From assembly GCF_036880985.1 (NCBI RefSeq), contig NZ_JBAJNO010000009.1, positions 186,001 through 250,000 of the forward strand: a stretch of 64,000 nt of DNA, written 5' to 3'. Shown here one piece after another: positions 37,971-39,839 of the stretch (positions within the stretch are counted from its first letter, which is position 1; each line of letters opens with the position of its first letter). The stretch comes from Limibacter armeniacum (lineage in GTDB: Bacteria; Bacteroidota; Bacteroidia; Cytophagales; Flammeovirgaceae). Under the pieces are notes generated by a model, which worked only from the letters and a program-made list of their open reading frames with translations, was not told the DNA's origin and ran no database searches. The translations under genes were made by a program, and so were the position numbers.

Positions 37971-38417
37971 ATGAGACATACCAAACAAGTACTGAAAGAT
38001 GTATTTGGAAGCAAAGAAAATGGCTTCGAGTATCTAAAAAAATGGAGAACGGGAGACAAAAAAACGCCTGTACTGTTTGTATATACAGAACAGGACCCCA
38101 CTACTGTCAATGATTTTGCTAATTGGCTTACCTCAATGGTACATGATGCGGATGTATTTAGTGGTTCACAGTTTACAGCCAATAAAGTTTCCAAAAACAC
38201 AGTCATTGTCAAAGACATTGGAAAGGTTTCTGAGGATATGTTAGATGAGGTAATCAAGGCGATGAAAAATGATAAAAGGATTGTGGTAGCTGCATCTCAG
38301 CGCCCCACTATTCTTGATTTTATACATGATGCCTCATTACGTGTCGCTAAACTAGAAGCATTTGATATGGATAAAGCTAATGAAGAGATACAGGATTTGT
38401 TAAAGGAAATAAGCTAG
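37971..38417 (+). CDS. Hypothetical 148-residue cytoplasmic protein
   Basis: There is no signal and no membrane segment. The pattern is alternating strands and helices: TPVLFVYTEQDPTTVNDFANWL, NTVIVKDIGKVSEDMLDEVIKAM, KRIVVAASQRPTILDFIHD, and a terminal helix MDKANEEIQDLLKEIS. The order of strand, Asp-containing strand and a strand with polar end (VAASQRP) is faintly like the core of an AAA+ or DnaA-type module whose P-loop has been lost, but this is a weak impression. I do not recognise the family. It follows the nitroreductase by 57 bases and precedes the ATE-like gene by 90 bases, all on one strand. Confidence 0.7.
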   Translation: MRHTKQVLKDVFGSKENGFEYLKKWRTGDKKTPVLFVYTEQDPTTVNDFANWLTSMVHDADVFSGSQFTANKVSKNTVIVKDIGKVSEDMLDEVIKAMKNDKRIVVAASQRPTILDFIHDASLRVAKLEAFDMDKANEEIQDLLKEIS

Positions 38418-38507: not shown

Positions 38508-39839
38508 ATGATTTTCGGTGTAATCACCCCACATCAGGAACCCGTAGGCAGAAAGAGCCTTGACAGGCTATTGGCTCAAGGCTACTTCAGGCATGGATAC
38601 ATTGTAGCCGCCTATGAAATGATGTACTTTGATGAAAAGATACAAGGGGTTGTCCCGTTAAGAAGCAGGCTTCAAGGCTATGAGTTTTCCAAAAGACAGC
38701 GTAAGCTAATTAGAAAAAACCGGGACAGGTTCAGGAAAGAGGTTCGCCCACTAAAAATAACAGCAGAAAAAGACCGCTTATACAGGCAATATAAAAGCTA
38801 CCGCTTTAAAGAGCAGGTAGAACGGTCTCTCAGTGACTTCTTTGGCTTGACTGGAAACCCTTATGCTAAAAAAGCCTATGATACATGGGAAATAGCATTC
38901 TATGACGGAAATAAGTTAGCGGCCATCAGCTTTGTTGATATAGGTGAAAAAGCGATGGCAAGTCTCTTGTGTGCTTTTGACCCTGACTACACTTCCTACA
39001 GTCTAGGTTTCTATTCTATGCTGGAAGAAACAACTTTAGCCATGGAGTTGGGACTCGACTACTATTATCCGGGGTATACACTTGATGGTCCTTCCTGTTT
39101 CGATTACAAACTGAGAGGAAACAACCTAGAGTTTTATGATTGGAAAGCTAACTGGAAATCCTGGAATGAATTTAAAGCAGAATCCACATTATGCTTCCAA
39201 CAAAGAAAAGTATTGCTTCAGGGCATTCAGGATATCAACCGTCAGTTAGAGATAGAAGGTAAGATCGTTGAACACACAGAGTATTTTAGCCATATATGGC
39301 ATGACACATTTGAGTTAGCCAATGTAGTCAAAGCGCCATTTTACTTGTCATTCAAACTTAGTCCTTATCATGAGATTGTGGTTCGGTACCTAAATCAGGA
39401 AGGTACTTTTGTAGCCGAGACCTGTAATTACCAGACACATAACCAACTACAGGATTATATAGAGACAAAAGACACCAAGCAAATCTCTAGTTTGATCAAA
39501 ACACATTACCTTAAGATCAACCACCTGTATCAGAATCTTTTCGCCAAACTGAAAGAGCTGGAAGAGAGCCTTTACAATGAGGATGAAACCTATCAGGAGA
39601 TCTCATTACAAGGAAGTTCAAGGATTTTCCCTGAATTTATGTGGCTTTCTTTTACGTCAAGAGACTACAACTGGGCTGTTGGCCTTCGTTTCAATGACGG
39701 TATTCCTCACTACATCCCTTCCTATTACTCTTATAGAGAAGGACAATGGAAAAACTGTGGATGGGCAACCACTACTAATGAGGTTAAAGAGTTGATCAAC
39801 AGAAAAATTGAAGAATTAGGTTGTGAAGAATTTACCTAA
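38508..39839 (+). CDS. ATE-family aminoacyl-tRNA-protein transferase, atypical
   Basis: 443 residues. Residues about 20-215 follow the ATE/Bpt pattern. LDRLLAQGYFRHGY and VPLRSRLQGYEFSKRQRKLIRKNRD match the region around the Cys motif and the Ser-Lys-x-Gln-Arg segment. The acyltransferase (GNAT-like) fold follows with KLAAISFVDIGEKAMASLLCAFDPDYTSYSLGFYSMLEETTLAMELGLDYYYPGY (only the general match is meant). The cysteines that normally precede PLR are absent (YEMMYFDEKIQGVVPLR). Residues about 220-443 are an extra region, largely helical then beta, of no family I know. ATE proteins move Arg or Leu from tRNA onto protein N-termini to make degradation signals. Whether this one does so is uncertain. 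Confidence 0.75.
   Translation: MIFGVITPHQEPVGRKSLDRLLAQGYFRHGYIVAAYEMMYFDEKIQGVVPLRSRLQGYEFSKRQRKLIRKNRDRFRKEVRPLKITAEKDRLYRQYKSYRFKEQVERSLSDFFGLTGNPYAKKAYDTWEIAFYDGNKLAAISFVDIGEKAMASLLCAFDPDYTSYSLGFYSMLEETTLAMELGLDYYYPGYTLDGPSCFDYKLRGNNLEFYDWKANWKSWNEFKAESTLCFQQRKVLLQGIQDINRQLEIEGKIVEHTEYFSHIWHDTFELANVVKAPFYLSFKLSPYHEIVVRYLNQEGTFVAETCNYQTHNQLQDYIETKDTKQISSLIKTHYLKINHLYQNLFAKLKELEESLYNEDETYQEISLQGSSRIFPEFMWLSFTSRDYNWAVGLRFNDGIPHYIPSYYSYREGQWKNCGWATTTNEVKELINRKIEELGCEEFT

Follow-up and report, generated by a model that had tools for sequence, protein, structure and literature searches.

A Cys-free ATE_C protein of Limibacter armeniacum with a two-module C-terminal extension, a putative tRNA-dependent protein aminoacyltransferase

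The window analyzed here, a stretch of 64,000 nucleotides from contig NZ_JBAJNO010000009.1 of Limibacter armeniacum, encodes on its plus strand (38508..39839) an ATE_C protein of 443 aa plus stop, with ATG as start codon, that lacks the cysteine cluster of known relatives and carries a C-terminal extension. The protein is no isolated oddity or artefact but a member of a Cys-free ATE_C branch found mostly in Bacteroidota. We consider it probable that it is a tRNA-dependent protein aminoacyltransferase of the ATE_C superfamily, which folds without a metal site and recruits its substrate through the extension.

The first-pass annotation of this DNA had assigned the protein to the aminoacyl-tRNA-protein transferase family from three sequence segments, and had named PF04376 and PF04377 as the profiles for comparison. 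The three segments are present, and the family placement stands: PF04377 (ATE_C) scored 65.3 bits over residues 88-205 (E 1.1e-17), against a cut-off of 25 bits. At E up to 1, PF04376 (ATE_N) did not match the window protein; a 222-aa paralogue from the same genome matches it from model position 16 (36.9 bits). Sequence matches in the PDB were to yeast and human ATE1 only (six different sequences with E no higher than 1, the best at 9.7e-9). Seven NCBIfam arginyltransferase models matched the protein, all of them below cut-off (best 102.2 vs 170); the same seven also stayed below cut-off for four other relatives, and the Bpt control proteins L183 and L207 each passed three of the seven. There was no match in PADLOC at E up to 0.1, and the best PHROGs match had an E of 0.078.

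The core, residues 1-218 (38508..39161, plus strand), is predicted to have a GNAT-like fold, as judged from superposition of the model on human ATE1. AlphaFold2, given the whole protein and an alignment of 18 sequences, returned a model with a mean pLDDT of 89.4 and a pTM of 0.81. Comparison of such a model with ATE1, proposed earlier, identified ATE1 as the nearest fold. In VIA, human ATE1 scored Z 18.4 (rmsd 4.2 Å, 226 aligned, model range 1-266) and the yeast ATE1s Z 14.0-17.2, against 13.2 for the best non-ATE1 chains, which were the acetyltransferase VipF and MprF. In Foldseek, ATE1 filled ranks 1-32 (E 1.9e-9 to 2.2e-6). In the predicted model the ATE1 kinship of the core is clear. Below VipF and MprF came FemX, A-PGS and the streptothricin-type Sba18/Sbb17 at about 12-13; FemX and MprF spanned Z 12.5-13.2, level with the CoA acetyltransferase VipF. 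Since these ranks mix tRNA-using and CoA-using enzymes, the fold below ATE1 cannot separate tRNA from CoA.

Two other readings draw on these lower ranks. FemX, MprF/A-PGS and Sba18/Sbb17 combine a GNAT-like fold with a tRNA-borne donor, as their entry titles and PMC10115844 indicate, and their place next in the fold list would suit an enzyme that uses charged tRNA with an acceptor other than a protein N-terminus, such as a side chain, a small molecule, a lipid or a peptidoglycan precursor. The altered acceptor-side motif described below and the variation of C-terminal domains from branch to branch point the same way. However, none of these enzymes was matched in sequence at E up to 1, the best ATE1 chain lies about 5 Z units higher, and no biosynthetic neighbourhood is held in common with other loci, so that we judge this reading distinctly improbable. 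An acyl-CoA-dependent GNAT acyltransferase appears very improbable. Acetyltransf_6 gave a weak score of 15.1 bits with the window protein (cut-off 22) and was above cut-off in five of the eight full-length relatives scanned, and VipF scores Z 13.2 in the fold comparison. Against this, ATE1 is clearly best in both sequence and fold, and a basic helix of the kind that would bind tRNA is retained. The CoA loop has the motif R/Q-x-x-G-x-G/A, and by eye none is apparent at Y-S-L-G-F-Y-S.

The cysteine site was judged against eight Bpt-type proteins taken from plasmid and phage records. Four alignment columns hold Cys in all eight, one of them in C-x-Y-L and three in C-x2-C-x2-C. The claim that the cysteines expected just before the PLR-type segment are missing was borne out, for the window protein has no Cys in any of the four columns and lacks the upstream C-x-Y-L segment. 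The sequence YEMMYFDEKIQGVVPLR (residues 36-52; 38613..38663, plus strand) aligns to Bpt Y-R-P-x-C-x2-C-x2-C ahead of a conserved Arg, which is its last residue, R52. Strands 32-36, 38-40 and 45-54 of the model form a beta hairpin at the Bpt cysteine position.

Loss of the cluster is not peculiar to the window protein but is common to many relatives. Among 156 relatives, the window protein included and the divergent L070 (hmmsearch E 6e-8) left out, the Bpt columns contain no Cys in 144, one in 12 and more than one in none, and a Cys cluster, which would have spoken against the annotation, was accordingly not found in these columns. For 10 of the 12, the single Cys sits in a column that is gapped in 145 of the 156 rows; moreover, the relatives' frames run from stop to stop, and some of these 12 residues may precede the true start. 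Eight rows have a CxxC somewhere within the frame's first 140 aa; in all five that were inspected, its place is upstream of either the likely start or the aligned core. In yeast ATE1, the cysteine site is reported in PMC10115844 to bind zinc and to support stability, the acceptor cleft and tRNA binding; as the site aids stability and tRNA binding there, its loss could mean an altered use of tRNA. PMC9884297 reports the ATE1 site as an Fe-S cluster that is sensitive to oxygen and has a link to activity.

By alignment there is a second change, at the active site, absent from the first-pass annotation. A K-M-x-Y-K criterion was derived in the present analysis from an alignment of the eight Bpt proteins and ATE1: the site reads K-M-N-Y-K in yeast ATE1, K-[ML]-x-Y-K in seven of the eight Bpt proteins and R-M-A-Y-K in the eighth. 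The window protein has C-F-D-Y-K instead, at the end of a segment Y-Y-Y-P-G-Y ... F-D-Y-K (residues 185-201; 39060..39110, plus strand). [FY]-D-Y-K is found in 149 of the 156 relatives and in none of the eight Bpt proteins; K-[ML]-x-Y-K is found in two of the relatives. The replacement would make another acceptor or donor, as had been suggested, more plausible.

Other parts of the core are strongly conserved. In an alignment of 159 rows, which includes two Bpt proteins and the divergent L070, R52, G167, G189 and W216 are present in all rows, Y187, Y190 and K201 in 158 and Y200 in 157. A predicted basic helix spans residues 62-74 (38691..38729, plus strand; model and alignment), with K or R, as in Bpt, at positions 62, 65, 66, 69 and 70; among the 156 relatives these positions are basic in 85, 92, 88, 73 and 78%, respectively. 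According to PMC10115844, helix alpha-f of yeast ATE1 enters the major groove of the acceptor stem in the complex with tRNA. The kept core and a basic helix matching alpha-f point to tRNA as the donor. The further suggestion of a different chemistry found no support, given the retained core residues and basic helix and the nearness of the ATE1 fold. Near-invariance in the 159 rows of the core residues shared with Bpt, together with orthologous forms in three genera (g1, g3 and g7), also makes it highly unlikely that this is a non-catalytic or degenerate paralogue serving as a binding protein, a role that the three genome copies, and an extension for which no relative is known beyond the family, might otherwise suggest.

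How the protein stands to its characterized relatives can be stated feature by feature. Bpt, the bacterial leucyl-tRNA-protein transferase, shares with it the PF04377 core, core length, basic helix and core residues, but has no extension, and the window protein falls below the NCBIfam cut-offs. ATE1, the eukaryotic arginyl-tRNA-protein transferase (PDB 8tzv, 7wfx and 8e3s), is nearest in PDB sequence and in fold and has the Y-x-G-Y...Y-K core in common; however, it possesses the CxxC...CC metal site described in PMC10115844 and PMC9884297 as well as K-M-x-Y-K, neither of which the window protein has, and its C-terminal part differs from the extension of the window protein within the compared model range 1-278. 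Because the metal site, K-M motif and ATE_N domain are absent and the scores lie below the curated cut-offs, the protein is not classed with either: by the features tested it is neither Bpt nor ATE1. Even so, it most likely works like them.

The C-terminal half had been described as extra. The extension in fact comprises about 220 aa, residues 221-443 (39168..39836, plus strand), for which Pfam gave no match up to E 5, and a one-module version of it is common to many relatives. Modelled alone it gave a mean pLDDT of 84.2 and a pTM of 0.79, and is predicted to form two alpha-beta modules. Module 1, about residues 226-320 (39183..39467, plus strand), has boundaries taken from the model and contains a near-invariant F-F-x3-W-H-x2-F stretch. 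Module 2, about residues 323-437 (39474..39818, plus strand), is modelled as a long helix, strands and a helix. With hhalign, the first half of the extension matched the ~140-aa extension of other Bacteroidota ATEs at a probability of 92.9 (E 3.8e-7), in a profile of 59 rows that includes two DUF952 fusions (L058 and L102), a different domain. The second half matched this one-module extension only weakly (probability 28, E 6e-4), and a comparison of both halves with each other gave almost no match (probability 2, E 0.024). Duplication of one module into two was rejected on these values; the similar order of helices and strands in the two predicted modules is only suggestive of it.

An HMM built from 23 such extensions was used to search for the extension alone in 194 genomes. 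Eleven genomes were matched. Ten belong to the window's family and contain 21 matches, every one directly behind an ATE_C match; the weak match in the eleventh genome, outside the family (E 0.001), was taken as chance. Among the 194 genomes the two-module form is therefore found in the window's family only and always behind an ATE core. Foldseek with the extension alone gave no PDB match at E up to 0.001. The best VIA score was Z 8.8 (rmsd 4.1, 97 aligned, second module only), in a range that the tool calls a common arrangement. The VIA rows include the Med17 C-terminal region, Ctf19-Mcm21 and Knl1, which we take to represent an RWD-like fold; with scores of Z 8.8 or lower in the common-arrangement range, we make no claim of such a fold for the extension. 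Viral structures were dismissed as relatives of the extension, the best Foldseek match having an E of 7.8e-4 but an rmsd of 14. Elsewhere, L102:5956-7014 (a Bernardetia plasmid) and L058:7472-8530 join a Cys-free ATE core to DUF952 (62.8 and 62.2 bits). The variation of C-terminal additions between branches would fit a targeting role.

PF04377 was detected in 100 of the 194 sampled genomes of the order (98 above cut-off) and in 18 of the 296 genomes of the phylum sample. Scanning named genomes gave 139 relatives, from which 80 loci were kept; these are chiefly from Bacteroidota, with others in MAGs labelled Acidobacteriota, Verrucomicrobiia and a few other groups. There are three paralogues in the window genome and in all eight genomes of genus g3, and four in genome G172. 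A profile search of the window genome placed its two further ATE_C genes on contig C8 (the window gene is on C9); one encodes 433 aa with a related extension and the other is the 222-aa single-domain protein. Among the matches listed from open-licence papers, neither titles nor abstracts dealt with ATE_C proteins that are Cys-free or from Bacteroidota.

Weak ATE_C matches of other small genomes (E 1e-8 to 4e-4) were left out of the phylogenetic set, except L070, and the set was reduced from 163 rows to 111 by removal of L070, L072 and rows more than 72% identical to a retained row. An earlier tree of 159 rows had long branches meeting at the join of Bpt and L070; the 111-row tree was made without L070 and with all eight Bpt proteins. 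In this tree of cores the Cys-free proteins and the eight Bpt proteins are split at 100/100. The other Cys-free Bacteroidota proteins, which carry a family annotation but no name of their own, lie on the same side of that branch as the window protein, also lack the Cys cluster and have [FY]-D-Y-K, but many have no extension, or one module as against two. One clade (support 100/97) takes in 62 of the 111 rows, among them 35 of the 36 rows with a 100-190 aa extension, all ten two-module rows and 17 rows without an extension. The sole 100-190 aa extension outside it is a DUF952 fusion. Two of the extension-less rows (L124 and L162) are cut by contig ends, and the remaining 15 are read as probable losses of the extension. 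Five other two-module rows group with the window protein at 100/100, whereas its 433-aa paralogue sits in another group, and no join of both groups is supported. The tree does not support a single origin of the two-module form, for the label requires two changes on it, with L051 apart, and one change in 24% of the bootstrap trees.

A viral origin was also rejected, as the IMG/VR scan (alignment A1) yielded no relative. The phages collection yielded two records only, labelled Acinetobacter phage, and the one fetched contains a Cys-bearing Bpt-like transferase gene. In L183:643-2208, labelled Acinetobacter phage, aat adjoins an arginyl-tRNA-protein transferase gene with a trxB-like gene beside it; this record may be bacterial DNA instead of phage. 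Two MAGs labelled Thalassovita and Thalassobius (L136 and L175) carry Cys-free ATE genes. In the tree L136 is joined at 100/98 to a genome from the family of the window, and its bin label may therefore be wrong.

Upstream of the window gene are a nitroreductase gene and a 148-aa ORF (37971-38414), the latter immediately 5' to the window gene on the same strand and unmatched in Pfam up to E 0.01; downstream, on the opposite strand, is a 1063-aa ORF. None of these neighbours clustered with genes of other loci, and assigning a function from them was abandoned. In Flammeovirga, the orthologue was flanked in all nine loci compared (L036, L039, L042, L045, L047 and L103-L106) by a phosphoribosyltransferase-domain gene, by our reading PyrE, and an Abi_alpha-like gene downstream of the ATE gene. 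In L103-L106 the Abi_alpha-like gene begins directly after the stop codon of the ATE gene; in four others it starts about 15 bases further along. Four Flammeovirga copies were scanned and scored 20.6-24.9 with the Abi_alpha Pfam model, below the cut-off of 29; the homologue of the window genome (65.8 bits) is distant from the window gene, on contig C8. No defence role was assigned on this basis.

The window genome contains one ClpS and one Aat. No ClpA was found in it above cut-off, and it has two further frames for Clp-type ATPases (854 and 882 aa); a ClpS route would thus need one of these two. The putative tag might feed degradation that depends on ClpS. Of the 100 genomes with ATE, 92 have ClpS and 67 have Aat, vs 68 and 36 of the 94 without (n=194), but these counts ignore kinship and cannot carry an argument. 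Seven listed genomes of g28 with ATE have two ClpS matches apiece. ClpS and Aat, along with the shared superfamily and conserved core, are what would be expected if the protein had the function of Bpt, the transfer of Leu to peptides beginning with Asp or Glu. We think this unlikely, in view of the empty Cys columns, the K-M replacement, the absence of a PF04376 match, the NCBIfam scores, the fully supported split from Bpt and the lack of ClpA above cut-off; three paralogues per cell would also suggest different jobs.

For the preferred reading, a tRNA-dependent protein aminoacyltransferase, the following mechanism may be proposed. The basic helix (62-74) would grip the acceptor stem of a charged tRNA, and the GNAT-like core (R52, G167, Y187, G189, Y190, Y200, K201 and W216) would hold its CCA-aminoacyl end. 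The amino acid would be passed to a protein amine, most likely the N-terminus. The Cys-free hairpin and F-D-Y-K motif would give the acceptor side another shape, and the two C-terminal modules may dock or recruit the substrate. We infer the use of tRNA, the N-terminal acceptor and the role of the extension from the features described above.

A broader proposal is possible but doubtful: the Cys-free branch may consist of distinct Bacteroidota tRNA-dependent protein modifiers that have no metal or redox sensor, in which Asp in place of K-M moves the acceptor or donor off the Asp/Glu rule, swappable C-terminal domains bring in targets, and the three or four enzymes of a Flammeovirga-type cell make up an unrecognised set of protein tags.

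The extension adds a domain that is uncharacterised and had no clear fold match in any library searched. In two papers on ATE1 (PMC10115844, PMC9884297) the cysteine metal site is treated as conserved and important. A natural branch without it would reveal the purpose of the site and separate the truly catalytic parts of the transferase from the rest. If active, these proteins would widen bacterial amino-acid tagging of proteins past Aat and Bpt, and their single-domain members, about 220 aa long, might act as small metal-free labelling enzymes.
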